A DNA stretch of 64,000 nt, taken from Chloroflexus aurantiacus J-10-fl (lineage in GTDB: Bacteria; Chloroflexota; Chloroflexia; Chloroflexales; Chloroflexaceae). This document shows, piece after piece, positions 3,544 through 29,260 of this stretch (its first letter is position 1; each line of letters opens with the position of its first letter). The notes under the pieces were generated by a model that had not been told where the DNA came from, did not search any database, and saw nothing but the letters and a program-made list of their open reading frames with translations. Both the position numbers and the translations under genes were made by a program. The stretch spans positions 558,001 through 622,000 of the forward strand of contig NC_010175.1 in the NCBI RefSeq assembly GCF_000018865.1. Reading direction: 5' to 3'.

Positions 3544-4161
3544 TCAGGGACGCAAACGGTGCAGTAGTGCTGTCAACCGATCATAGTCATCTTTCAGCAA
3601 CCGGGCAAGTTCACGACCGACCCGCACCAGGTAGGTCGGGCCATCACGTCGGGCCAGAGCAATCGTCCGTACCGCCGCTGTCAACAACTCGTCGGCGGGT
3701 AGGCCAGGTGCCAGCAACACAGTTCGCAAGAAGTCCAGATGATCACCAAACGCCGCTAATTCCTCGTTCGGACAAGGATACACCGAGTAGTGGACGGGTG
3801 GCGGTTGTGGTGGCAGGCGCTGGATCAAGCGCCCATGCAGGGTATAGCCGACAATCAACGCCGTAAATTCGGTTTGCAACACGACACTCAGATCGGGATG
3901 GGCGCGATAAATCTCGTCGTCGTACAAATAACGCCCGGTGTACGTTCGCCCGCGCACGATTGCCCGACCACCCGGCTCGCGACTGCCGGTATGAATATCG
4001 TAGATCAATCCGTAGACGTGCAATCCCTGATCGGTCGTGGTTGCCCGTACCAGTGATCCAAACGGTGGCGAGGCGAGGAGTTCATACGTCGCAGCCACGA
4101 AATGGATGGTTGACGACTCGATGACCTCGCCGATCCGACCATTCTGTGCTTCTGATTGCAT
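3544..4161 (-). CDS. HAS-barrel domain protein linked to NurA
   Basis: A 205-residue protein. The segment from about residue 10 (GEVIESSTIHFVAATYELL, then SPPFGSLVRA) matches the HAS-barrel found at the N-terminus of HerA-type DNA-translocating ATPases and in related stand-alone proteins. No Walker motifs follow, so the ATPase part is absent. The C-terminal half is helical and unassigned. It begins 3 nt after the nurA stop on the same strand, so it is translated with the nuclease. The likely role is to bridge NurA to a HerA-type motor encoded elsewhere, or to regulate NurA. Domain recognition is from pattern memory only. Confidence 0.72.
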   Translation of the reverse strand: MQSEAQNGRIGEVIESSTIHFVAATYELLASPPFGSLVRATTTDQGLHVYGLIYDIHTGSREPGGRAIVRGRTYTGRYLYDDEIYRAHPDLSVVLQTEFTALIVGYTLHGRLIQRLPPQPPPVHYSVYPCPNEELAAFGDHLDFLRTVLLAPGLPADELLTAAVRTIALARRDGPTYLVRVGRELARLLKDDYDRLTALLHRLRP

Positions 4162-4164
4162 AGG

Positions 4165-5376
4165 TTATCCCTGAATAAACTGCTTACGCTCACGCTTTGC
4201 CGAAACACCGGTTGGTACCTCAGCCTGGCGCAAAACCCCGGCTACCATCTGCTCGAAGACCCGCCGCTCGGCACTGCGAATGACAGCCTGTTCGTGGGCA
4301 CGTTGCAATACGACCGGATAGCCCTGACCGCGCATTGCCTGATCGTACACCAGAGCATGCACCTGTGCAACCATATCTGGTTGGCCGGCAACCCACGCCG
4401 GTATTTCGATCCGCGCCAGCTCGCGCCCAATCCGCAGGAAGAAGAAATGTATTTGATGATCGCCATACCCTTCGATGCTGATCCGACTCCACGAGCGAAA
4501 GATCGGGCTGCGCTCACCTTCTTGCAATCTGGTGGCAAAGAGATCGGCATCGATTACATCCTGGCAAATCATGCACGATGGCGTCTTGCCTTGTTTCGCA
4601 TCACTACACTGCGCACAATTTGCCCCGCGCTGCGCGGGCACATTCACATCCGGGCAGAACATCAGTCGCATTAGTCCCATCACCTCCGGCGAGCGGGTGC
4701 GACTGATATACGATGCTACCGGGATACCGATCTTCCGCATCTGCTCCAGGTAATTAAGGTACTGACCTAAAAAATGATCACGGATGAACTCGTCGGCATT
4801 TGCCAGTGCCCAACGGATTAATGTGCCATCCTGGAGCGCCAGCCGGGGAATGGTTGTATCGTTGAGGTACATTGCCGCAAACCGGCCTAATGCCACGCCC
4901 TCTTCGACATCACGACGCACGCTTAACACAGCCCCCTCTACCGGGATACGACGAGTATCCTCGTGAAGGTACAGGTCGTCCTCGCTGAAATAGAGCCGTG
5001 GTGACGACTCCAGGTACGCTTCCGGGTGCGCACCGTAGCGCAGGTAGACCTGGCCGATGTTGATCAGGTAGCAACTGACCTCGCCATGCCGATCCACATC
5101 AATATGCGAGCCGTCAGTGGCCACGACCGCATAATCGGTAGGAAGGGTCTCTATCCGACCGATGGTATCGAGCGGTTCAACCGGTTCGGCCAGCAACCAG
5201 TGCGCCGAGGTTGCACTGAGGCGCACAGCATCCGCCCAACGCTGCTCATACCCCACCTCGTTCAGATAGCGTGTGGCAATCTGTGCCATCCGCGTCTCTC
5301 GTTGTGCAACCGAACGGGCGGCATTTTGCCCCATTGCCCGCAATTGTTCACTCAGCGCAGCCAGATTGAGTGTCAT
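4165..5376 (-). CDS. nurA: NurA domain nuclease with embedded CxxC pairs
   Basis: NurA is a Mn2+-dependent 5'-3' nuclease of the RNase H-like fold that works with HerA in DNA end resection. The 403-residue protein shows the family's first metal motif, TDGSH at 87-91, and a second acidic motif, QDGTLIRW, with Asp183. A segment between these and the C-terminus carries five cysteines (241, 254, 257, 268, 271) with two CxxC pairs spaced like a zinc ribbon, which classical archaeal NurA lacks as far as I recall. The HAS-barrel gene follows at 3 nt. No herA is in the window. Confidence 0.85.
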   Translation of the reverse strand: MTLNLAALSEQLRAMGQNAARSVAQRETRMAQIATRYLNEVGYEQRWADAVRLSATSAHWLLAEPVEPLDTIGRIETLPTDYAVVATDGSHIDVDRHGEVSCYLINIGQVYLRYGAHPEAYLESSPRLYFSEDDLYLHEDTRRIPVEGAVLSVRRDVEEGVALGRFAAMYLNDTTIPRLALQDGTLIRWALANADEFIRDHFLGQYLNYLEQMRKIGIPVASYISRTRSPEVMGLMRLMFCPDVNVPAQRGANCAQCSDAKQGKTPSCMICQDVIDADLFATRLQEGERSPIFRSWSRISIEGYGDHQIHFFFLRIGRELARIEIPAWVAGQPDMVAQVHALVYDQAMRGQGYPVVLQRAHEQAVIRSAERRVFEQMVAGVLRQAEVPTGVSAKRERKQFIQG

Positions 5377-5681
5377 CGCTCTCCTCCGCTCACCTGTTCG
5401 TGTCGTTCAGCATAGACGATATGACGCAGCTTGTCAATCTCGTTCCGCCCCTCTCTGGATGTGCCTGCACGTGCAGGAGCAATATTCAGCGCCAGTTGTG
5501 CTCTGCTCCCTGGCACAGGGCGAAGGTTTGCCCCGGCGCACCCTACGGCTGATGTCACTGACGGATCGCGAGCAATGCCATCTCAGACCACCACCACCTT
5601 CCGGTCAATGGTATGATGGATCAATAAATTGTTGCGGTTACCGGCTGGTTCCGGGCAAGCACAGGGCAGGAAAAGCAGGAT
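5377..5681. other. Intergenic region between divergent nurA and folC
   Basis: About 305 bp between divergently transcribed genes, so it must hold two promoters. For folC an extended -10 candidate (TGGTATGAT, hexamer 5612-5617) is visible without a good -35 box. I find no convincing gene: overlapping short frames on both strands lack a ribosome binding site. Confidence 0.5.
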
Positions 5682-9301: not shown

Positions 9302-9354
9302 CTCGTTAATAGCTGTCTCCTTTGACTAAATATGACGATATAACTGTTACCTGG

Positions 9355-9384
9355 ATTATAGCACTGTTTGGTTTGCATCTTCAA
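9355..9384 (-). promoter_or_regulatory. Promoter of hflX
   Basis: On the minus strand TTGAAG (9384-9379) and TATAAT (9360-9355) are separated by 18 nt, with an extended TGC before the -10. The predicted start is near 9348, giving a leader of about 40 nt to the start codon. Confidence 0.62.
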
Positions 9385-10058
9385 GACCTGCGGTCGGCAT
9401 TCCTCCCCCGGCGGCAGCCGATCCGCACCTGGCCCTGGTGCAACAATCTCAATATAGCATCCGCCGAACCCGATGTTAACCTTCTACGGACGGATGTTAC
9501 TCATAATGATCGGAGCCGACCCCATCCAGGCCCCAATAGAGCAACTCGCTATAGCATGCGCGTACATAGCCAGCGCTGCCCGTCCATATGGAGAGGGTGG
9601 AAGCCGTGTTGGCGCCAGTTCAGGGGCGGATAGAATGTTTGATCTAATGCGCTTTCTGCCTCATCAGGAAGCTGCCGGGCAGATTTTTGCCACACTTCGC
9701 CTGCAAATGTGTTCCCGTGGAATGTAGTCGCCTGAAGCAACGGCGAGCAAGGGTTAGAACTTCTTTCATAAAAAGCTGTGCTATCGCACTCTAATAACCA
9801 TCTCCAGTACCATCACGCGCTGAATTGGTTGCCTTGTGCGCCCATCACCCGCGTGTTGCATCGTTTGGAGTACGGCAGCATGGCTGCCGCAGCAGCCGTG
9901 CTTACGATCCGGTGCATGGTACGCCGTTGACCCGGCTGGTCACGCAGATGTCGGGTGTGCTTCATGGAATCGGTCGGCAATGAATGAGATACCTTCATAT
10001 GTAGATATTTTTTGAAACAGGTTCTGGTTTGGTCAAAACAATGTCGTTGTTTGCGACT
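9385..10058. other. Gene-poor region with a dispersed hairpin
   Basis: About 670 bp without a convincing gene. Short frames on both strands lack ribosome binding sites and recognisable motifs. A perfect inverted repeat CGGCAGC-ATG-GCTGCCG lies at 9880-9896, inside a stretch (TTTGGAGTACGGCAGC) that resembles the GTGGAGTGCGG-type dispersed elements seen near 18.0, 18.15, 23.5 and 43.5 kb. Confidence 0.5.
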
Positions 10059-10361
10059 TCATTGATATTCCAGAAATTCGCCATGCTCATCGAACATTGG
10101 CCGAGTTCTTCCTTCATTGATTTCGGTTTCAATCACATCTATCAATTCAGCCAGCTTGCTATCGTCAGTCGATGCGAACTGAGACTCCCATAAAGCTTCA
10201 TCTGCCAGTATTTCTGAAAACATCTCTTCAGGTAGTGGATGCATCTTCAGGAATAGCGCAAATTGGTACAGTTGCATGACCTGCGCCATCGGTAGGGTAG
10301 TAGCGATGTCAGTAATAGCTTTTATCAAATCCGCTTGTGTCTGCTGAGTGTTTGTTGTCAT
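10059..10361 (-). CDS. Small acidic protein, antitoxin-like, orphan
   Basis: A 100-residue acidic protein. The C-terminal part (about 62-92, including LAELIDVIETEINEGRTRP) has the layout common in bacterial type II antitoxins: acidic helices, then a short basic-Pro tail. The N-terminal half (SQFALF-like helices, TLPMAQVMQLYQFALFLK) is amphipathic. A GAGGA site lies 9 nt before the ATG. No toxin gene follows or precedes it, so it is either an orphan antitoxin or an unrelated small regulator. The assignment is by general resemblance only. Confidence 0.6.
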   Translation of the reverse strand: MTTNTQQTQADLIKAITDIATTLPMAQVMQLYQFALFLKMHPLPEEMFSEILADEALWESQFASTDDSKLAELIDVIETEINEGRTRPMFDEHGEFLEYQ

Positions 10362-10746
10362 TTTGTTAAATCCTCACAGCCATTCTACTATCTGCCTTCT
10401 CAAAGGTTGGAATGTTCAACTGCATCCTCGCAAATGATGTATCGTGTTATCAAAAAATCGTGCTGTTATTATTCAGTGTTTCCTTAGCCGATGTCTACGC
10501 TTCGGTCAGTTGAGCTAACCCAAGTTGCCGCCTACGCTGTGAGCAGGCCACGTAAGCTGACTGCTATAATGAACAGCACGACGCTGCACACAACACCGTG
10601 AGGCGTAAACGTATGAACCATGTGGGTAGTAGCCAATTCCCATAGCCGCACGACTTCGCGCTTTGATGTAGCCACTCGGATTATGCCCATCCTCTGTGTC
10701 CTCTGTGCCTCTGTGTTGATAAAGGTGGCAACTTGGATTAAGCTAA
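10362..10746. other. Intergenic region with CTCTGTG-type dispersed motif
   Basis: I see no supported gene. At 10692-10718 there is a run of near-repeats (CCTCTGTGTCCTCTGTG, then CCTCTGTGTT). Comparable CTCTGTG-rich stretches recur in intergenic DNA of various bacteria. It directly abuts the hflX fossil that follows. Confidence 0.45.
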
Positions 10747-21529: not shown

Positions 21530-21785
21530 GGTGTTCAAACTAACAGGGAGTACGAGAAGGCCAGACCCACCCGCCAGGAGATCGCCATCAGGTATCGCCG
21601 GGATCGCGCCCTGGATACCGCTCAGATTGCCCCTGTCGTAGGTCACCGTGTCACGTAGAACCGAGTCGTTCAAGCCAGTGTCGAAGGTGTTCTGGAACAT
21701 CGCCTGGTGGATGCATGCGATTCGATCATTGGTCAAGAGGATGACGTGCTTAATGACGACACTCAGCGGCTCCGCTCAGTTTGCG
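21530..21785 (+). pseudogene. Degraded coding fragment of unknown family
   Basis: From about 21536 one forward frame is open for about 80 codons apart from a single TAG at 21656, and reads like genuine protein (EKARPTRQEIAIRYRRDRAL, later VVQASVEGVLEHRLVDACDS). A second frame upstream (YDLQEGPPVFKL) suggests a frameshift near 21545. There is no ribosome binding site, and the tail overlaps the 3' end of mgtC on the opposite strand. I cannot name the family. Confidence 0.3.
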
Positions 21786-22620
21786 ACCCAGGAACAGCTT
21801 CATCAGGATCATTCAGATCGCGGAGCAACGTCGCATCTTTCAGGTTGAGCGGTACAATCGTATCATCCTTCTGAACCTCGTCGCTTTCATCCATCGTCGT
21901 CGGTTCATCTAGCGGCGTAATCGCCGTTTCGACCTGGACAACATACTTCTTAAGCGTCAGGAGTTGCCGTGCAAGCAGCGGTGCCTGCTCCGCGCTCAAG
22001 GTACGCGCCAGCTCAACGTCCAGTAAGGCGGAAGTACCAGCCCCGGGAAGAACCGTCGCCCGTTTCACCGGCACTCCGAGGCGAACAAGTGCATCAAGTG
22101 CCTTGCCAACTGACCGACTATCATCGCGCAGATGAATGCGCAGACGACTGATCGGCCCGCCAAAGTTGAGTCGCCTTTCAAACCATTCAAGAACCGTAAG
22201 GGTGAATAAAAAGAGCAACGTCCCAGCAATGGCAAGCCATCCCAGACCGACGGCAACAGTGATACCGATCCCTGCGCATCCCCACAACGTCGCCGCCGTT
22301 GTCAGGCCGCGTACAGTGGTTCCATGGCGCAGAATTGCGCCTGCACCCATAAAGCCAATCCCTGAGACCACATAGCTTGCCACACGTAGGGCATCACGTT
22401 CGCTACTCAACTCGGCAAAGCCATAAGCACCGGCCATTGTGACCAGACAGGCACCAATCCCGACCAGAATGTGTGGCCGAAAGCCACTTGCCCGCTCGTG
22501 TCCAGAACGTTCGAGGCCCACCAGCCCTGACAGTACCAGTGTCAGCAGCAGTCGACCTAACAGATTGGCATCAAAAGGCCCCATGATCCGTATAAGCTCG
22601 AGTCCCATATCTTGTATCAT
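21763..22620 (-). CDS. MgtC/SapB family membrane protein
   Basis: A 285-residue protein with an N-terminal MgtC-type domain of about five membrane helices (LVGLERSGHERASGFRPHIL and the GAGAILRHGTTVRGLTTAA motif) followed by a cytoplasmic alpha/beta domain (about 170-250), like the longer MgtC/SapB/YhiD members. These proteins are tied to Mg2+ limitation, intracellular ion balance or acid resistance. It lies 1.3 kb from the Mg2+-riboswitch CorA operon on the same strand, which suggests an ion-homeostasis cluster, although it has no M-box of its own. GGGAG precedes the ATG. Confidence 0.9.
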   Translation of the reverse strand: MIQDMGLELIRIMGPFDANLLGRLLLTLVLSGLVGLERSGHERASGFRPHILVGIGACLVTMAGAYGFAELSSERDALRVASYVVSGIGFMGAGAILRHGTTVRGLTTAATLWGCAGIGITVAVGLGWLAIAGTLLFLFTLTVLEWFERRLNFGGPISRLRIHLRDDSRSVGKALDALVRLGVPVKRATVLPGAGTSALLDVELARTLSAEQAPLLARQLLTLKKYVVQVETAITPLDEPTTMDESDEVQKDDTIVPLNLKDATLLRDLNDPDEAVPGSQTERSR

Positions 22621-23901
22621 GTAATGCTCCCTTCATCCTAATTGGCGATCATAGCTGCAACTCTCGCACCATTCTCCAGGAGAGGCAAACGACTACTGCG
22701 TGCGCCGAATTCAAACAGTTCGGCGCAGCGGCTCCGGTCAATCGCAGTATCCATTGTTGGCTGTTGGCGTCATCCTCCCCACGCACCCAGTCCCTCAGCT
22801 CGCTTTGGAAACACTCATACGACACCCGGTAGTCCAGCCGGTTCTTCTGCCCACTTTAGATGTGAGCAATGAGCGCGACCAGCCTTGTTAAATGCTCGAC
22901 AGATCTTCTCCTTACGCTCCCTATGTCGCTACCAGCCAGCTTTGTCCCCCTTGGCAGAAGCCATGCTATCTCGCATCAGTGAGTGGAAAGAGATCACCCA
23001 CAGCAAGCTGTATCTCATTCGCGAGGGTTGGTTGATCGTCACGACCCCTATCCGGCCCGGTATCTATCCGTTCGATCAGGTCGAGCATCTGGGTGATCTC
23101 TGCTATGGCAGCCGCATGCCTGGACTGAAGTGTGCGACGTTCATCGCTTCAATAATATCAAATCTCCATTGATATAGTACATCACTGCTGATGGAATCAT
23201 CGCTGTTCATCAGTTCAGTGATAGCAGTTTCCTCGCTCCGAAGGGGAGGCTTCCTGCCTACGCTTGTCCATTACCTGTACCACTGTCACGAGACCGGAGC
23301 AGAAAGAGGCTGATGAGCAGGCTGAACGCCCGCTCCGCGATCCGCGCACCGCTCACGCGCAGTCCGTGCATCACAGATAATCAAGCCAGACGGACGTACT
23401 CTACACGCATGTTGCCTCCATGACCAGCAAGGAAACCGCTGGAACCCGCCCCTGATCGTGAGCACGGCTGGTGTGGAAGCCACGCTGCCGCGCTCCACAC
23501 CACACGACACAGGCAACCCTACCTGGCAGAGGTATCCTCTCCGGAACGTGATCCTGCGGCGTGCGGAACGACAATGCTGGTTTTGCGCATCCACGCTCAG
23601 GTGTGGTGCCAGGGTGATCGTCGAATTACGTGTTATGAACGCTACTACACCAGATTTGATATAAGTTCCGGGGCCAACCGTAATCTTCTAGCTCCGTGAG
23701 CAACTGCTCACACGGCGCACGGTAATTGGGATGTGCAGAGAAGAATGCGCTAGATTACGTTACTGTGGTACTCAATTCTTCTTAATTTCTTATCAAGCAG
23801 CATCTGTCACCTTGATAAGCCCTTGCTTAAGCCGTGCAAGCCCCGTGGAGACTTTCACGGCCTTGGCAAGGGTTTATGATGACGAACCCTCCGCTGATAA
23901 A
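22621..23901. other. Long gene-poor region with hairpins and decayed frames
   Basis: About 1.3 kb without a supported gene. A forward frame at 22885-23172 contains a coding-like stretch (SRISEWKEITHSKLYLIREG, then WLIVTTPIRPG) but has no start signal or known motif; it may be a remnant. A hairpin with an 8-bp stem (GGTGTGGA/TCCACACC) lies at 23470-23501 in a GTGTGGA-type dispersed element. A nested hairpin is at 23820-23872. Confidence 0.5.
23820..23872 (-). terminator. Nested hairpin after the CorA operon
   Basis: CCCTTGC (23820-23826) pairs with GCAAGGG (23866-23872), and inside it GCCGTG (23831-23836) pairs with CACGGC (23856-23861). It lies about 30 bp past the last operon stop, as expected for an intrinsic terminator, but no clear U-run follows. 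Confidence 0.45.
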
Positions 23902-24237
23902 TTACCTTGCTGCCGGCTCGTCCTGAGGCGATTCGTTTATAGTGGTTTCGACTTGCTGCGGCAGCTCTGCTATGACGTATCTGCCATACAGGTGCAACCC
24001 GGCAAAACTGCCCAGGATTAGCAAGTACAACACGATGACAGCCTGAATGATCTCTCGCTCGAGCTGTGCCGTGCGAGAGCGGTTGGTACGGGCTTGTGCG
24101 ATGGCTTCACGTCGTCGCTGTGCGGCTCCAGCGACATCGTCCTGAAGCGTCAGATCGGCGTTCCCAACAAGGCCAAAACCAGTCGTGCTGTTAAATGTCT
24201 CGTCTGCTGTTTTTGTTTCATTCGAGAACTTCTTCAT
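23902..24237 (-). CDS. Small single-pass membrane protein in the CorA operon
   Basis: A 111-residue protein. Residues 1-50 are polar, 50-62 basic (RRREAIAQARTNRSRTAQLE), about 67-85 hydrophobic (AVIVLYLLILGSFAGLHLYG), and the tail acidic. This predicts one membrane helix. A strong AAGGAGGT lies 8 nt before the ATG. It is the last gene of the M-box operon, after the first CorA-like gene. A role as an accessory subunit of the transporters is possible; no family is recognised. Confidence 0.75.
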   Translation of the reverse strand: MKKFSNETKTADETFNSTTGFGLVGNADLTLQDDVAGAAQRRREAIAQARTNRSRTAQLEREIIQAVIVLYLLILGSFAGLHLYGRYVIAELPQQVETTINESPQDEPAAR

Positions 24238-24320
24238 AATCGTTACCTCCTTGTGTGATAGGCTATCACTGGTGTTTTAAGACGTCTGCAAATCACCCAC
24301 AGAAACGTGTATCCTATCAG

Positions 24321-25265
24321 TTACCTCAGCAATCCACGCTGTTTGACATAGATGAGTGGCAGCAGCGCCAACAATGCTGTTAGAGCGATAACCATAGGCT
24401 CGCCATACTGCCACTCCAGAATGGGCATGTATGCAAAATTCATGCTGTAGTACGTCGAAATGAGCAGAGCGGGCATAAACACGGCAGTGAGCACTGAAAA
24501 CACCTTGACAATCTGATTCTGCTTGACGCTCAGCGCCAGGTTATTGGACGTTTGTAACAAGCGAACGCGGTCATGGACAAAATGCACGTGCTCCTCGATC
24601 TCTTCGATGTCATCAATGAGGGTGAGGTAAAGCTGCTTGAGATGGAAAGACTCCTGCGGAAGACGCGCCAGTGTCTGTCTCGCCACCAATGCAAGTTGCA
24701 GTTGGGTCTGGATACACTGTGAGAGCAGGTCCTCAACTGTGCCCAACTCAACCTGTGTCGCTACAACATCGCTGACCCCGAAGTCTCGCTCGTTCGACTC
24801 AAGGCTGTGAAGAACCGCATTCGTCTGTACCAGCGCCTCTCCAAGCTCCTCGTTCAGCAAATCGATCAGTTCATCGGTGGCATCGTTGATTGACTGTAGG
24901 ACAACAGCAAAGGCGTCGAATGGATCGTTATCGCGACCATCACGCTGCATCCGCGACACCGCCACTCTTAACGGCTTGGGGCTGGGATCTGGTTCCAGGG
25001 ACACAAGAATCTCTCGCCCAAGCACAAAAACAACTTTGCTGATCATCTTCTTGCTGCCCTCGACGCTCAAAAACGTCAACGGGTAAATCAGGAATTCCCC
25101 TTCCTGGCAAAGGCCACTCTTCAAAGCCTGGACAACGTCAATGCCCAGACGTTGCTTAATCGCTGCAAGTGCGTCCGTCTGAGTGATGCTGACACGCAGC
25201 CAACGATCAACCGAAGGTGTCTGATTGGCGGAAACTGGAAGCGAAAGCAATTCGTTCTGGCTCAT
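24321..25265 (-). CDS. CorA-like divalent cation transporter, YSMNF variant
   Basis: A 314-residue CorA-superfamily protein: an N-terminal alpha/beta domain, long helices (about 110-250) and two C-terminal membrane segments, ending in a basic tail. The signature between them reads YYSMNFAYMP, where canonical CorA has YGMNF..MPE; the first Gly is replaced by Ser, but Met-Asn is kept. The ATG overlaps the stop of the small gene upstream (25262-25265) and has AAGGAG at good distance. One of three paralogs in the operon, with probable Mg2+ or related cation transport. Heteromeric assembly with the paralogs is possible. Confidence 0.88.
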   Translation of the reverse strand: MSQNELLSLPVSANQTPSVDRWLRVSITQTDALAAIKQRLGIDVVQALKSGLCQEGEFLIYPLTFLSVEGSKKMISKVVFVLGREILVSLEPDPSPKPLRVAVSRMQRDGRDNDPFDAFAVVLQSINDATDELIDLLNEELGEALVQTNAVLHSLESNERDFGVSDVVATQVELGTVEDLLSQCIQTQLQLALVARQTLARLPQESFHLKQLYLTLIDDIEEIEEHVHFVHDRVRLLQTSNNLALSVKQNQIVKVFSVLTAVFMPALLISTYYSMNFAYMPILEWQYGEPMVIALTALLALLPLIYVKQRGLLR

Positions 25266-25588
25266 TGTGATTCTCCTTCTCCGTCTGACGGATTGCTCTG
25301 GGGAGTAGCAATCTCCTCAACGTAAAAACTCTTATGCGTACCCGATGTTGAAGACGTCCGCGTTTCCAGATGGTAGTTGCCAAAATGCAGCGCAGCCACA
25401 ATCGCAATCATAAGACCCCAGGCGAGACCCATCATGAGGAATGATAATCGTTCGTAACGAGTCCAGCGTGTTGATGGCTTGTCTCGAAGTGCCCGACTCT
25501 GCGCACGGCGTGCGTCCCGCGTCCACACCAAAGGTTCTGCAGGAGTGTCTACGCTACCAGACCATCTGTTGTAAGTAAACTGTTGCAC
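25262..25588 (-). CDS. Small single-pass membrane protein between CorA genes
   Basis: A 108-residue protein. An Arg-rich, Trp-containing N-terminal half (YNRWSGSVDTPAEPLVW, then RYERLSFL) precedes one membrane helix near 56-72 (LMMGLAWGLMIAIVAALHF) and a polar tail. A GTG start at 25588 is chosen: AAGGAGGT sits 6 nt before it, whereas the ATG at 25606 lies within that ribosome binding site. The 3' end overlaps the next CorA-like start by 4 nt, so translation is coupled. Family unknown. Confidence 0.75.
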   Translation of the reverse strand: MQQFTYNRWSGSVDTPAEPLVWTRDARRAQSRALRDKPSTRWTRYERLSFLMMGLAWGLMIAIVAALHFGNYHLETRTSSTSGTHKSFYVEEIATPQSNPSDGEGESQ

Positions 25589-25618
25589 CGTTGGACCTCC
25601 TTTCATTCATGTATAGGG

Positions 25619-26518
25619 TCATCTGAGCGCTCCCGTTTGTCTAATGATGATCACAGGCACTGCCGTCACCAATAGCACGCCCAGCATCTGTACCAATGAA
25701 GAGGCAAACCACGACAACTCTGGCATGAACTGAAAGTTCTGCCCATACCAGTTGATCAAGGCGGTAGCTGGTACAAATATGGCCCATAGTACTGTGAACA
25801 CCTTGACTACATTCAGGTCGCTCATAGCGACGGTCTCTCGCGCCGCCGTTTGATGAAACCGCTGTCTCTCTTGCATGAAGCGTGCCCGCCGTTGCACGTT
25901 TTCGATTTCAGTGATCAATTCATCAACATGATCAACGGTCAGGGATGACTGCCGAAGAACTGCGCGGCGTAACTGACGCCCTGACCGCTCCAGATCGTCT
26001 AACGATTGCAATACGAAAGACAGGGGAGCGTTTAGCCGCGAGAGACGGGCGTCTAAGTTTTCTACATCCTCAACTCCGCTCGCTTCATCAGTACCAACCT
26101 TCATCAGGAAGCCAGCACTAATGCACCCGGCTACGCTCAACTCATCGTCGATTACATCGAGTACGTTTGCTGTCTGGAATACCAACTGATGTAAGAGTGC
26201 CAACGCTGTTGCATGGGAGCTTTCAAATGAAAGCCCCTGGCTCCAAATCCACTTACGTGCCTGACCCGCCCACAGCTCGCTGTGAATTGGCTCCACTGTG
26301 TAGAGGGGCGTCTGATCGTCACGCAGAAGCCAGAATATATCTGTCACCAACAGGCGCGATCCTTCGAGCCTGGCACAGCGAATGCGCAGGATGTCTTCAG
26401 ACCGAACAATGGCCTCTGGTATCAGGGACAATTCGTGCGTGCGAGCTACCTCCTCAAGCTCCTGCTGATTGCTTGCCCGTAGACGAACCCATGCGGGTAG
26501 TTCATTAACTGTTGTCAT
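25619..26518 (-). CDS. CorA-like transporter, YGQNF variant (second paralog)
   Basis: A 299-residue CorA-superfamily protein with the N-terminal domain, long helices and two C-terminal membrane segments. The signature is WYGQNFQFMPEL, where canonical GMN has become GQN. The start at 26518 (MTTVNELPAWVRL) is chosen because its ATG overlaps the TGA of the upstream CorA gene (26515-26517); the longer frame to 26602 would run into that gene. Third transcribed transporter or cofactor gene of the operon after the ferritin-like gene. Substrate inferred as Mg2+ or a related ion. Confidence 0.88.
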   Translation of the reverse strand: MTTVNELPAWVRLRASNQQELEEVARTHELSLIPEAIVRSEDILRIRCARLEGSRLLVTDIFWLLRDDQTPLYTVEPIHSELWAGQARKWIWSQGLSFESSHATALALLHQLVFQTANVLDVIDDELSVAGCISAGFLMKVGTDEASGVEDVENLDARLSRLNAPLSFVLQSLDDLERSGRQLRRAVLRQSSLTVDHVDELITEIENVQRRARFMQERQRFHQTAARETVAMSDLNVVKVFTVLWAIFVPATALINWYGQNFQFMPELSWFASSLVQMLGVLLVTAVPVIIIRQTGALR

Positions 26519-27450
26519 CGCATCCACCCCTTCTTTTTGATGTAAAACAACGGTAGAATTGCGCTTAAACCCGTAAGGACGATAACTGCCCATTCTCCCC
26601 ATGGCAGGAACAACTCGGGCATTTCAGCAAAGTTCTGTCCATAAAAGGCAGCAACCAGGGTTGGTGGCGTGAAGACCGCTGTCACGATAGTGAAAACTTT
26701 GATAACATTGTTTTGCTTAAGATCGAGCATGGTCATCAACGATTGCTGAAGATTGCGAATCTTGCCATGCTGAAATTGTGCATAGCGTCGCAAGCTGTGT
26801 ATATCCGATACCAGCGTAGGTAGCGCCTGACCGAACCGCCTGCTGCTCTCGATGCGTCGTAACCAGCGAACCGCTCGGGCGATCATCATCTGGCTCTCGA
26901 CTGTCTTTGCAACCAGTTCCTCAGCTTCAGCCAGTTTGGCCACCATATCAGCAATATCCGCGACACCAACCTGACGCCCTGCCATCTGGTAACCACCACC
27001 TGCGCTGGCTACGGATGCACCAGTTTCGTCGAGACGCTCGGAAATCTCTCGAATAGTCGCATGAGCTGTGTCGTTGAGCGATTGCAGCACAAGAAACAGG
27101 ACAGAGGCCGGATCATGGCTATTGCCAGCCTGAACTTCTTCAAGCAAGATCCGGCTTGCCACATCCAACGTGCCAGGATGCGTCTCGAGACTAATGAGCA
27201 CTGACTTACCCAGGGCGAACACCACATTCGTCTCGCGGTATTCATGTTCCCGGTGAACTATCAGGTTCACCGGGATGATCAAAAAACCATACTCCTCAAC
27301 TGTCGCACGTCTGGAACTTACCAACAGATCGATACCGTACACACGCTTCACCTCTGCCAGTCGATCATCTTGATGCCGGAATAACCTCATCCAACCGGCT
27401 TGAAGCAGATGATCGTGCGCCGATGTAGCAGCGATTGCATTCGTCGTCAT
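26515..27450 (-). CDS. CorA-like transporter, YGQNF variant (third paralog)
   Basis: A 311-residue CorA-superfamily protein: a soluble N-terminal domain, long helices, then FYGQNFAEMPELFLPWGEW and a final membrane segment ending KKKGWMR. The canonical GMN is replaced by GQN, the same variant as its downstream neighbour. Start at 27450 (MTTNAIAATSAHDHL), preceded by AGGAGAC; the frame open to 27492 adds 14 unrelated residues. It is translationally coupled to the next CorA gene. GQN proteins may differ from CorA in ion choice, since this motif forms the pore-mouth selectivity filter in CorA. Confidence 0.88.
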   Translation of the reverse strand: MTTNAIAATSAHDHLLQAGWMRLFRHQDDRLAEVKRVYGIDLLVSSRRATVEEYGFLIIPVNLIVHREHEYRETNVVFALGKSVLISLETHPGTLDVASRILLEEVQAGNSHDPASVLFLVLQSLNDTAHATIREISERLDETGASVASAGGGYQMAGRQVGVADIADMVAKLAEAEELVAKTVESQMMIARAVRWLRRIESSRRFGQALPTLVSDIHSLRRYAQFQHGKIRNLQQSLMTMLDLKQNNVIKVFTIVTAVFTPPTLVAAFYGQNFAEMPELFLPWGEWAVIVLTGLSAILPLFYIKKKGWMR

Positions 27451-27546
27451 CGCAGGTCTCCTCTCTAAAACTCGTAACACTCCTGGTGGCATAACACCTG
27501 GTTATAAGGGATTGCTGGTTGTGGAGATTTGCGACACCTTCAATCC

Positions 27547-27975
27547 CTACCGCCGTGTACGTCCTATCGCGTAACCGTTAGCACGATTATCGAAGTCTGC
27601 CCATTTACGCAGGAGTAGAACCGCATCCAGGATTGCCCGCACATCACGCCGCTCAATCCATTCCGCCCAGCGCAGGGCAACGACAATGCCACAGCGCGGC
27701 AACAGCCAGAGCCAGAATCGGTCTATCGCACTGCCAGAAGGTGGCAACGGCGCATGAAGACGAGCCAGGGTACGTCGGTAGCGCTGCTGGTGTGCGCGTT
27801 TCGCATTAGCGAGAGTCAACAGCATAATCCTACGCTGCTCGTCGGGTGCTCTGGCCGCGAGTTGCTGGTAGAGCAGTTTCAGAGTTTCGTGATGACGCCA
27901 GGCCCGCTGCACTGCAAATACCAGTTCGGCCCGCAGTTCGAGCCGACTGGTAATGTAAGGTAGGATTAATCGCAT
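27547..27975 (-). CDS. Ferritin-like helical protein in the CorA operon
   Basis: A 142-residue, all-helical, strongly basic protein. Residues 15-75 (AWRHHETLKLLYQQLAARAP, then EQRRIMLL, then AHQQRYRR) look like the rubrerythrin-type domain found at the N-terminus of VIT1/CCC1-type iron transporters, but the usual ExxH metal ligands are mostly missing. The C-terminal half is also helical (RFWLWLLPRCGIVVALRWAE) and partly hydrophobic. Strong AGGAGGT before the ATG. Its place in a Mg2+-controlled transport operon hints at metal handling or a structural role; this is inference. Confidence 0.7.
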   Translation of the reverse strand: MRLILPYITSRLELRAELVFAVQRAWRHHETLKLLYQQLAARAPDEQRRIMLLTLANAKRAHQQRYRRTLARLHAPLPPSGSAIDRFWLWLLPRCGIVVALRWAEWIERRDVRAILDAVLLLRKWADFDNRANGYAIGRTRR

Positions 27976-28013
27976 GTTTCACCTCCTGGGCGCATACGCT
28001 CTGCGCCTGCATC

Positions 28014-28241
28014 TTATCGCTTGGTTACGCCTCGGATGAGGTCATCCTGAGAACCGAACATCCCCGCCGTGAGAGCTACATCTTGTACAATGTCCGCTTT
28101 AGCCAGGTGAAGAGAAGGGCGGGACACTCGTGGCGGCGAGCCAGCAATCAACCGATCTGATTGGTGCGCAGCCGATGAAACTCGAACGAAGGTTGCCTTA
28201 AGATGGTTGTTCTCATCAAGAATCCAGCGAATGATCAGCAT
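28014..28241 (-). CDS. Small hypothetical protein, first conserved-looking gene of the operon
   Basis: A 75-residue protein starting MLIIRWILDENNHLKATFVR. A strong AGGAGGGGAG precedes the ATG at 28241; the frame is open to 28262, but those extra residues have no such site. No family recognised, no membrane segment clearly predicted. It leads the ferritin-like gene by 38 nt. Existence is supported mainly by the ribosome binding site and position. Confidence 0.55.
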   Translation of the reverse strand: MLIIRWILDENNHLKATFVRVSSAAHQSDRLIAGSPPRVSRPSLHLAKADIVQDVALTAGMFGSQDDLIRGVTKR

Positions 28242-28594
28242 CACTCCCCTCCTCTCATTCATGCGCCGACCGCGCTTGCAGGCGCACTACAGTTGTCTAC
28301 TCGATCCACGCAAATGGCGGGCACGACGAATCAAGCCGGAAGCCAATAACGGCCACCGAAGCGAAAACGAGCACACCACACCTGAACTATCGGCAACCTA
28401 CCGATAGCACAACGATGGGATTGTGTGGTCTGATGTTGTGAACCAAGTGGAAGGCAGTGGCGTAGTACCGGGGGACGACGTGCTTCTGATTGGGCAGATC
28501 AACACGTCTGGTCTACGCTTGAAACAAACGGCCCTGGTCAGACTGGCTTACCAGGGCATCGCAACAAGTGAGGAGCAAGTGCTGCTGTGAGGTG
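28242..28594. other. Spacer in the CorA operon leader
   Basis: About 350 bp between the small ORF after the riboswitch and the next gene with a good ribosome binding site. A forward 50-codon frame from a GTG at 28438 (VEGSGVVPGDDVLLIGQINT) reads like protein but has no signals and runs against the operon; it may be a fossil. Confidence 0.4.
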
Positions 28595-28678
28595 CTACAC
28601 ACAGGGTAAGCGTCGTCTGATGAGGAGGTTTGTTGCGGCATTACGCCACCGCCAACGGTGACTACCACCTTCTTCCAT
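28595..28678 (-). CDS. 27-codon ORF right after the M-box terminator
   Basis: An ATG at 28678 is preceded by AGGAGG at 5 nt spacing, placed directly after the riboswitch terminator. It encodes a 27-residue basic, Trp/Arg-rich peptide (MEEGGSHRWRWRNAATNLLI, then RRRLPCV). It could be a leader peptide or a small membrane-active protein. An overlapping frame (ATG at 28740 or 28638, ending 28513) is the alternative. Coding is not proven. Confidence 0.4.
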   Translation of the reverse strand: MEEGGSHRWRWRNAATNLLIRRRLPCV

Positions 28679-28689
28679 ATGAACCTCCT

Positions 28690-28727
28690 AAGAAATAAAT
28701 GCCCCTCCAGTAGGAATAGGAGGGGCA
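28690..28727 (-). terminator. Expression-platform terminator of the M-box
   Basis: On the minus strand TGCCCCTCC (28727-28719) pairs with GGAGGGGCA (28708-28700), a 9-bp GC-rich stem, followed by TTTATTTCTT. It lies 16 nt after the riboswitch P1 and before the first ribosome binding site of the operon, as expected for Mg2+-dependent termination. Confidence 0.8.
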
Positions 28728-28742
28728 ATGCATATCTCATTT

Positions 28743-28906
28743 GCTCCCTCTTCGGTTGAGCTTAAGCCCGCATACAACGTAGTAGCAGCGCTACAGTTGC
28801 TTTAGCATAACCCTTAAGCCGAGCTATACTGTATACCCCTAAGCGTCTTTCGACGGGTCGGAGCAGCAACCTGTGTTTGTATGCAGACCGCGCCTACCAA
28901 GGAGCG
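28743..28906 (-). ncRNA. M-box (ykoK) magnesium riboswitch
   Basis: The minus-strand RNA has the M-box landmarks in order: P1 5' strand GCUCC (28905-28901), GGUAGGCGCGGUCUGC, ACACAGG and UUGCUGC, then the GUCGAAAGACGC hairpin, GGGUAUACAG, GGCUUAAGGGUUAUGC, GUUGUAUGC, the GCUUAAGCUCAACCGAAG core, and P1 3' strand GGAGC (28747-28743). Its length of about 164 nt is typical. M-boxes fold with several Mg2+ ions and switch off Mg2+ transport genes when Mg2+ is plentiful. Here it sits between a strong promoter and a terminator hairpin, upstream of three CorA-like genes. Confidence 0.93.
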
Positions 28907-28927
28907 AAACGTAACAAATCCTTGCGT

Positions 28928-28956
28928 AGTATACGTCTCGATCTAATAATTGTCAA
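28928..28956 (-). promoter_or_regulatory. Strong promoter of the M-box/CorA operon
   Basis: On the minus strand a consensus TTGACA (28956-28951) and TATACT (28933-28928) are separated by 17 nt. The predicted start near 28921 is about 15 nt before the riboswitch. Confidence 0.85.
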
Positions 28957-28960
28957 TACC

Positions 28961-29260
28961 TTATTTTGTTTTTGAGAACCAGGCTTTCTTCGGCGGAATC
29001 CCGGTAGGTTTGGGGATGTAGATTACGAACACAGCTTCGTGATAGTCCTGCAAGTAGTTGAGATAAGCCAGGTATTTCCAGTCCCTCTCTATCAGTCTAT
29101 TCTTCCATAACTGCTCAGTTGGGTTGAATGTGGGACTTTGGGTCGGTAGGCAAAGAAGTGCAATGTTTTGAGCGATATGGAGCACCCTGGTAAGCGCGTT
29201 ACTCGTTCGAGAAGCAGGACACGAAAGGTATCGGGGTAGTGTGTAACAGCAAATTTAACA
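28961..29260 (-). mobile_element. IS630-type transposase remnant (C-terminal, frameshifted)
   Basis: The frame 29185-28961 encodes a DDE-transposase tail with PTQSPTFNPTEQLWKNRLIE, where the Glu is the last catalytic acid of the IS630 family, followed by the usual YLQDYHEAVF-like helix. Upstream another frame (THYPDTFRVLLLERVTRL) continues the domain with a shift near 29190. The N-terminal half and inverted repeats are not found. It is a dead fragment next to the CorA operon promoter. Confidence 0.75.

Follow-up and report, generated by a model that had tools for sequence, protein, structure and literature searches.

The 64,000-nucleotide stretch of Chloroflexus aurantiacus J-10-fl analysed here (NC_010175.1, positions 558,001 to 622,000; hereafter the window, numbered from its first letter) carries a minus-strand operon in which an M-box Mg2+ riboswitch precedes three CorA-family genes (CorA1, CorA2 and CorA3) and the genes of two small membrane proteins (smB and smC). 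We lean towards reading these five genes as one transferable Mg2+ uptake system, the core of which is probably a hetero-oligomeric CorA-type channel accompanied by two accessory subunits. The joint travel of three CorAs and two small membrane proteins across two phyla suggests a single channel of mixed subunits.

All five genes were present in each of the 17 genomes with a cassette, three of Chloroflexota and 14 of Pseudomonadota, a decayed plasmid copy not being counted. An earlier note on this DNA, made from its letters without database searches, had proposed that the small genes are fixed companions of the CorA genes, and this is what the wider sample shows; moreover, profiles of smC and CorA2 hit the identical six of 53 genomes of the genus Comamonas. 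A scan with the CorA3 pair as query against 84,980 species, each represented by a single genome, yielded 12 loci, 11 of them with all five genes: one further Chloroflexota metagenome-assembled genome (MAG; L068) and ten Pseudomonadota (two Pseudomonas, three Alcaligenes, Bordetella trematum, three Comamonas and one Enterobacterales isolate). The twelfth (L079) was dropped, its match being limited to 64 residues within the membrane part and no cassette being present. Four more complete cassettes came from three genomes of the same genus as Comamonas BIGb0152 (L098-L100) and from one of the family that includes Bordetella trematum (L101).

Frequencies were low throughout. CorA2 occurred in 2/400 sampled Chloroflexota genomes, and CorA3 in two of the 82 genomes of the order and one of the eight of the genus. 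For Pseudomonas (1/199), the Comamonas order (1/399) and the CwR94 order (1/394), the single positive was each time the genome on which the search was centred; the family of Bordetella trematum had the cassette in 5/250 genomes. At most five candidates per genome were scored for Chloroflexota CorA2 and for the Comamonas and CwR94 orders, and at most nine for the Bordetella family, hence misses are possible in these counts. The CwR94 cassette had no blastn match in Escherichia coli. A mobilizable plasmid of Serratia marcescens (L083) holds the decayed copy, which retains CorA2 and the C-terminal half of CorA1 and lacks CorA3, smB and smC; integrase- and transposase-type genes lie upstream of it. 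This was the one CorA2 match among plasmids at E 1e-20; CorA3 had no match in plasmids at E 1e-40 or in phages at E 1e-10. Low frequencies, spread across phyla and a plasmid copy together point to a rare unit that moves horizontally. The gene set of the window thus holds up in synteny for its five-gene part, but as a rare mobile unit; a Chloroflexota-specific trait is ruled out by the Pseudomonadota cassettes.

All three CorA-like genes of the earlier note exceed the Pfam CorA cut-off (PF01544, 27 bits) with 131.6 bits for CorA1, 44.8 for CorA2 and 177 for CorA3, and none reaches the TIGR00383 equivalog cut-off of 200.75 bits (107.4, 40.5 and 102.8, respectively). A maximum-likelihood tree of 64 proteins places CorA1, CorA2 and CorA3 in groups of 17 with support 99, 100 and 99, each containing both phyla, and splits the cassette CorAs jointly from 13 other CorAs (support 100/97), CorA2 on a long stem. 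For the outgroup, 15 of 20 CorA genes outside cassettes in ten genomes were taken; L109, L113 and L114 fell out for want of an open reading frame (ORF) passing the motif filter, and the remainder plus the window genome's own CorA make up the 13, with L107, L110 and L111 being short ORFs of 250-253 aa. The outgroup rows are few and the program warns of long branches. Since each CorA group spans both phyla, the three types are older than the spread between phyla, and for the same reason an origin by tandem duplication of corA was rejected.

The selectivity filter motif is type-specific and invariant: GQN in 17/17 CorA1 and 17/17 CorA2, SMN in 17/17 CorA3, and GMN in none of the 51 proteins. All 13 other CorAs keep G.N, and in 10 of them the middle residue is M. 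As GMN is lacking and the TIGR00383 score falls short, the cassette proteins are not canonical CorAs. Positions were numbered by setting the motif Asn, which we take to be residue 314 of Thermotoga maritima CorA, and this register agrees with matches to solved CorA structures. On this scale all 17 CorA2 proteins have Trp at position 298 (A298 in T. maritima) and Leu at 288 (N288), a site occupied by Asn, Ser or Thr in other CorAs; in CorA1 and CorA3, positions 298 and 288 are Thr and Asn, respectively, in 17/17 proteins of each type. A passage of PMC4504495 describes the hydrophobic gate of CorA as lined by M291, L294, A298 and M302. Five Trp at position 298 are hard to reconcile with a CorA2 homomer that conducts, and plausibly would block its pore. 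The fold itself appears to be retained: the predicted CorA2 model has a stalk helix (195-261) and a further helix (266-295), and the top 50 Protein Data Bank (PDB) matches shown by the fold search were all CorA (best E 2e-7, probability 1.00). CorA1 and CorA3 are tied to solved CorA structures by sequence match.

smB and smC, about 99-118 aa long, have one hydrophobic stretch each, in agreement with the two single-pass membrane proteins described earlier. Across five loci, the 15 residues preceding the stretch hold four to six Lys/Arg and the 15 following it at most one, a charge bias which indicates that the N-termini are probably inside. Conserved in smB are W[ST]RYE[RK]LSF before the helix and TSSTSG[ST]H after it (TSSTAATH in L068); conserved in smC, before the helix, are GLVxNxDL and EREI. 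In alignments with 12 further cassettes, smB and smC of the window share 40-81% identity with their counterparts. Neither protein had a Pfam or NCBIfam match above cut-off, and sequence searches of the PDB gave best E-values of 0.6 and 0.26, which we attribute to chance.

The unit is arranged differently in the two phyla. The three Chloroflexota cassettes have the order CorA1-CorA2-smB-CorA3-smC and the 14 Pseudomonadota cassettes the order smB-CorA3-smC-CorA1-CorA2, so that the blocks CorA1-CorA2 and smB-CorA3-smC are swapped and still adjacent. CorA1 and CorA2 overlap by 4 nt in 13/13 cassettes measured, and smB and CorA3 do so in 12/13, the thirteenth having another start choice. An M-box lies ahead of the cassette in 3/3 Chloroflexota, with mgtC near all three; in L068 a fer-like gene and then mgtC stand between the M-box and the cassette. 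No M-box at gathering threshold was found in the examined stretches around the 14 Pseudomonadota cassettes. There, a histidine kinase with a LuxR-type response regulator (10/14; 9309-11008 in L069, with equivalents in nine other loci), a porin (11/14) and a small protein of one family (11/14) are the recurring neighbours, and the adjoining two-component system is possibly the regulator of the cassette. The small protein weakly resembles the MgtE N domain in L077 and L078 (E 0.007 and 0.009, below the Pfam cut-off). In three Alcaligenes, their close relative L101 and Bordetella trematum, an N-terminal piece is fused in frame to the porin, and in the case tested (L070) the best match of this piece is a Mg2+-translocating P-type ATPase. 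By eye, a signal-peptide-like stretch lies between both parts of the fusions.

A search of the 82 genomes of the order gave 25 M-boxes in 23 genomes, and the 24 further loci were read alongside the window. In eight of them (L030, L031, L038, L040, L042, L043, L044 and L047), the M-box is followed by the genes of an ABC permease (~670 aa) and an ABC ATPase (445 aa), those of the other seven being 86-99% identical to those of L044, where the families are BPD_transp_1 (permease, 3666-5675) and ABC_tran with AAA_assoc_C (ATPase, 9343-10680). The permease is split in two pieces in L043, where an mgtE gene precedes in the M-box operon, and L037 has a permease start at its contig end. A fer-like gene lies before the ABC genes in 7/8 and mgtC after them in 7/8, L038 being without both matches. 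Other M-boxes of the order lead to mgtE (e.g. L041, TIGR00400, 388.9 bits) or Nramp (L053), and several contigs end soon after. We regard the M-box ABC genes, mostly accompanied by mgtC, as a candidate ABC-type Mg2+ importer; no binding-protein gene was noticed in these operons, a search aimed at one not having been made.

In L044 (genome G064, of another family), CorA1-CorA2-smB-CorA3-smC lies with an intact ABC permease gene on one side and an intact ABC ATPase gene on the other. Over the cassette, window and L044 match at 80.7% across 3,614 nucleotides, the limits lying 33 bases before CorA1 and 14 after smC. Outside the cassette, the two match in pieces only: the M-box (78.9% over 166 bases), fer (77.6% over 116), mgtC (72.0% over 744) and 49 bases of an ATPase remnant. 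No match to the ABC permease is left at the window locus in this comparison, and the best permease match elsewhere in the genome, just 39-48% identical, is therefore a paralogue. The simplest account is insertion of the five-gene unit into an M-box/ABC operon, followed in the window lineage by decay of the ABC genes. fer and mgtC are part of the older M-box operon and not of the five-gene unit, and p28014 probably belongs to the former as well; of the seven genes grouped together in the earlier note, five thus make up the unit.

At the window locus, that note had described a promoter, an M-box and a terminator hairpin ahead of seven tightly packed minus-strand genes, several of them with ATGA overlaps or strong ribosome binding sites. 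The seven ORFs (p28014, fer, CorA1, CorA2, smB, CorA3 and smC; Table 1) were confirmed with revised starts, and mgtC is indeed near, beyond the ABC ATPase remnant, which the note had not described. The ferritin-like nature of fer is tentative: ferritins head the fold search with its predicted model, but at E 0.09 or worse, the window protein has no Pfam match, and its relative in L044 reaches Rubrerythrin at E 0.003 and 18.4 bits, below the cut-off of 22.8. The covariance search with RF00380 detected the M-box at 126.9 bits (gathering threshold 44) over model positions 1-169 of 169. Downstream of it, the hairpin 28700-28727 of terminator 1 has a folding energy of -19.1 kcal/mol (z -2.9), equalled by 2/200 shuffles; a simple terminator scan of the window did not return it. 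The M-box with its predicted terminator heads the minus-strand operon as riboswitch and expression platform. The promoter claim holds for the match itself, 11/12 to consensus, and for its place, but promoter-like sites are not in excess over chance (three in the window, mean 4.9 in shuffles), so that the site is supported solely by its position just before the M-box. Just upstream of the promoter lies a fragment resembling IS630-type transposases (28961-29185, minus strand, score below cut-off), and elsewhere in the window a glmS ribozyme was found (RF00234, 41256-41456, plus strand, 63.5 bits).

Behind the M-box, and likewise absent from the earlier note, a leader ORF with acidic codons near its start is followed by a second terminator-like hairpin (hairpin 2). 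In the window, a stretch of 7 nt in the 5' side of this hairpin could pair with the last part of the leader ORF (28605-28611 with 28546-28552). ATG plus two acidic codons occurs at most 130 nt after 14/25 M-boxes of the order and in 27/2082 control windows of the same loci, a difference not readable as a probability because the loci are related and not independent. We aligned 11 leaders (window, L030, L031, L032, L037, L038, L040, L042, L043, L044 and L047). In the first half of the ORF, all alignment gaps are of three or six bases, which fits a translated frame; in the second half, a four-base gap separates the window from the other ten. A GC-rich hairpin 2 with a T-rich tail lies behind the leader ORF in 11/11. 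Pairing of the leader end with the 5' side of the hairpin, over 6-10 nt at the same place, is possible in 8/11 (window, L030, L031, L032, L037, L038, L043 and L044; counted without a chance control), is absent from L040 and L042 and lies at another place in L047. In the window and in L038, there are changes on both sides of the pairing. A longer ORF of this region (28513-28740) was rejected as a gene, as it runs through the terminator. Leader ORF and hairpin 2 form a candidate second Mg2+ sensor, acting in two steps with the M-box.

Table 1. Features of the window operon and of related loci (window coordinates unless a locus is named).
Feature	Coordinates	Strand	Remarks
Sigma-70-like promoter	28928..28956	-	TTGACA-17-TATACT; 11/12 consensus matches
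M-box Mg2+ riboswitch aptamer (RF00380)	28740..28908	-	126.9 bits, E 4.4e-28
Terminator 1 of M-box	28688..28727	-	9-bp hairpin 28700-28727 plus T-rich tail
Leader ORF, 27 codons	28595..28678	-	MEEGGSHRWRWRNAATNLLIRRRLPCV; AGGAGG begins 11 nt before ATG
Terminator-like hairpin 2	28519..28557	-	8 bp, T-rich tail; without shuffle control
p28014, small protein of M-box operon	28014..28241	-	short, weak matches in L031, L038, L044 and L047 M-box operons, E 1e-4 to 4e-4
fer, 142 aa, helical, possibly ferritin-like	27547..27975	-	ancestral M-box operon gene
CorA1, CorA-family subunit	26515..27450	-	FYGQNF replacing YGMNF
CorA2, most divergent CorA-family subunit	25619..26518	-	INWYGQNF; ATGA overlap with CorA1
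smB, single-pass membrane protein	25262..25588	-	GTG start
CorA3, CorA-family subunit	24321..25265	-	YYSMNF replacing YGMNF; ATGA overlap with smB
smC, single-pass membrane protein	23902..24237	-	
ABC ATPase remnant, broken	22665..23103	-	residues about 290-445; between smC and mgtC
mgtC-family gene	21763..22620	-	downstream gene of ancestral M-box operon
Decayed module pieces on plasmid (half CorA1, CorA2, kinase-/regulator-like pieces)	L083 14513-15897, 17637-18230, 26220-27268		
P-type ATPase N-terminal/actuator piece-porin fusions	L070 9233-10951; L072 9358-11073; L073 9188-10903; L071 9273-11039		also L101

From these patterns we infer hetero-assembly, the roles of the subunits, Mg2+ as the substrate and attenuation by the leader peptide, which might work together as follows. 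The channel core would presumably be a pentamer of mixed CorA subunits, with CorA1 (GQN) and CorA3 (SMN) supplying most of the conducting ring and CorA2, hardly able to conduct as a homomer, serving as a structural or gating subunit. smB and smC would be N-inside single-pass partners of the channel, and the Ser/Thr-rich motif of smB would come to lie just outside the membrane, on the same side as the GxN loops. Expression of the window cassette at low Mg2+ is expected because the unit sits in an older M-box operon: when cytosolic Mg2+ falls, terminator 1 would no longer be favoured and the cassette would be made. The leader peptide, with its acidic second and third codons, and hairpin 2 may add a translation-based Mg2+ check.

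The most serious competitor, though in our view clearly the less probable explanation, is a toolbox of three separate homo-oligomeric CorAs of differing affinity or gating, co-expressed and each perhaps with a small regulator. It draws on the match of every CorA to the family profile and on the predicted CorA fold of CorA2, and is opposed by the constant company of all five genes in 17/17 genomes, by the overlapping gene pairs and by the invariant Trp298 and Leu288 of CorA2, where five Trp would plausibly obstruct a homomeric pore. We consider it improbable that this CorA-type system carries a different ion or serves efflux (e.g. Zn2+, Ni2+ or Co2+, or Mg2+ release). ZntB-type relatives with other GxN motifs serve Zn2+, and the replacement of GMN by GQN or SMN in 51/51 proteins speaks for such a change, whereas M-box control in 3/3 Chloroflexota cassettes implies expression at low Mg2+, and mgtC nearby and the piece of a Mg2+-type P-type ATPase in part of the Pseudomonadota point the same way. 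Ordinary redundancy, i.e. corA duplicates of one lineage with functionless small ORFs, is hardly credible, as the resemblance to a tandem expansion is confined to the window taken alone, three clades each hold both phyla, and neutral evolution would have to account for smB and smC at 40-81% identity across 12 other cassettes, a cross-phylum conservation that already contradicts it.

Several points weigh against the mixed channel for Mg2+ uptake that we favour. Mg2+ as the substrate is deduced from context, namely the M-box, mgtC and the P-type ATPase, and joint inheritance would also fit three separate channels whose partners need joint dosage. The CorA2 model has a pLDDT of 74.6 and is weak in its pore half, with TM-scores to CorA chains of about 0.4-0.6. 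Of three neighbouring small proteins tested in Pseudomonadota, that of L071 had no MgtE_N match and the other two stayed below cut-off. One to three additional CorA genes were present in 11/12 cassette genomes checked (the exception is a MAG, possibly incomplete), and the cassette is thus an addition and not the sole CorA. Finally, the cassettes were collected with CorA3 and CorA2 as queries, which diverged or partial sets may escape, and the smC-only search covered one genus.

The cassette CorAs share the Pfam match of T. maritima CorA (PF01544, TIGR00383), and the CorA2 model matches CorA structures; the known CorA is a homopentamer with GMN, whereas the cassette comprises three non-GMN paralogues and two small proteins. 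Like the cassette, the yeast pairs Alr1/Alr2 and Mrs2/Mfm1 are paralogous CorA-family subunits thought to cooperate, but they are eukaryotic, are not encoded in one operon and lack accessory bitopic proteins. The small proteins MgtS and, as described in parts of PMC8092293, MgtR and MgtU are likewise encoded with or act on Mg2+ transporters, yet these are regulators of about 30 aa, in contrast to smB and smC with about 99-118 aa and a constant association with CorA genes. M-boxes are almost always found upstream of corA, mgtE or mgtA, and also of Nramp-related genes, according to a section of PMC4072509. Known M-box operons share the RF00380 aptamer and a terminator with the window operon; what sets the operons here apart from those described in that section is the CorA unit of five genes (in relatives, the ABC transporter) together with a leader ORF and hairpin 2. 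Small upstream ORFs behind an M-box are mentioned for Mycobacterium tuberculosis in a portion of PMC12810186. Early acidic residues in the nascent chain are reported to destabilise ribosomes, whereby Salmonella mgtQ promotes production of the Mg2+ transporter MgtB (again in parts of PMC8092293). The leader peptides of mgtL and mgtQ resemble that of the window in their acidic codons near the start and possibly in alternative hairpins, but the latter, a putative regulator, sits directly behind an M-box aptamer and belongs to Chloroflexota.

Several CorA genes in one organism are described elsewhere, with three corA genes at distant genome sites in Paenibacillus (in a passage of PMC11897986) and multiple CorA homologs in Streptococcus agalactiae (in a passage of PMC13214224). 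Our literature searches brought up neither a three-CorA operon nor a bacterial CorA heteromer, which does not establish their absence in print. We put it at about an even chance that the cassette would be the first bacterial hetero-oligomeric CorA, with three obligatory paralogues (GQN, GQN and SMN) and two obligatory bitopic subunits in a self-contained unit that crosses phyla and uses the Mg2+ control of its host, i.e. an M-box and an acidic leader-peptide attenuator in Chloroflexota and often an adjoining two-component system in Pseudomonadota.

The significance of such a channel lies in the symmetry of the known one: CorA is a homopentamer, and its gating is debated since five equal subunits must break symmetry. 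If our interpretation is true, a natural system with three distinct subunits and two accessory proteins would allow every subunit type to be altered separately, and the cassette would show how a channel under the control of a Mg2+ riboswitch can depart from the GMN filter. Moreover, two unannotated families of small proteins, smB and smC, gain partners and a probable setting, and a Mg2+ uptake system would be seen to move horizontally as a complete module.

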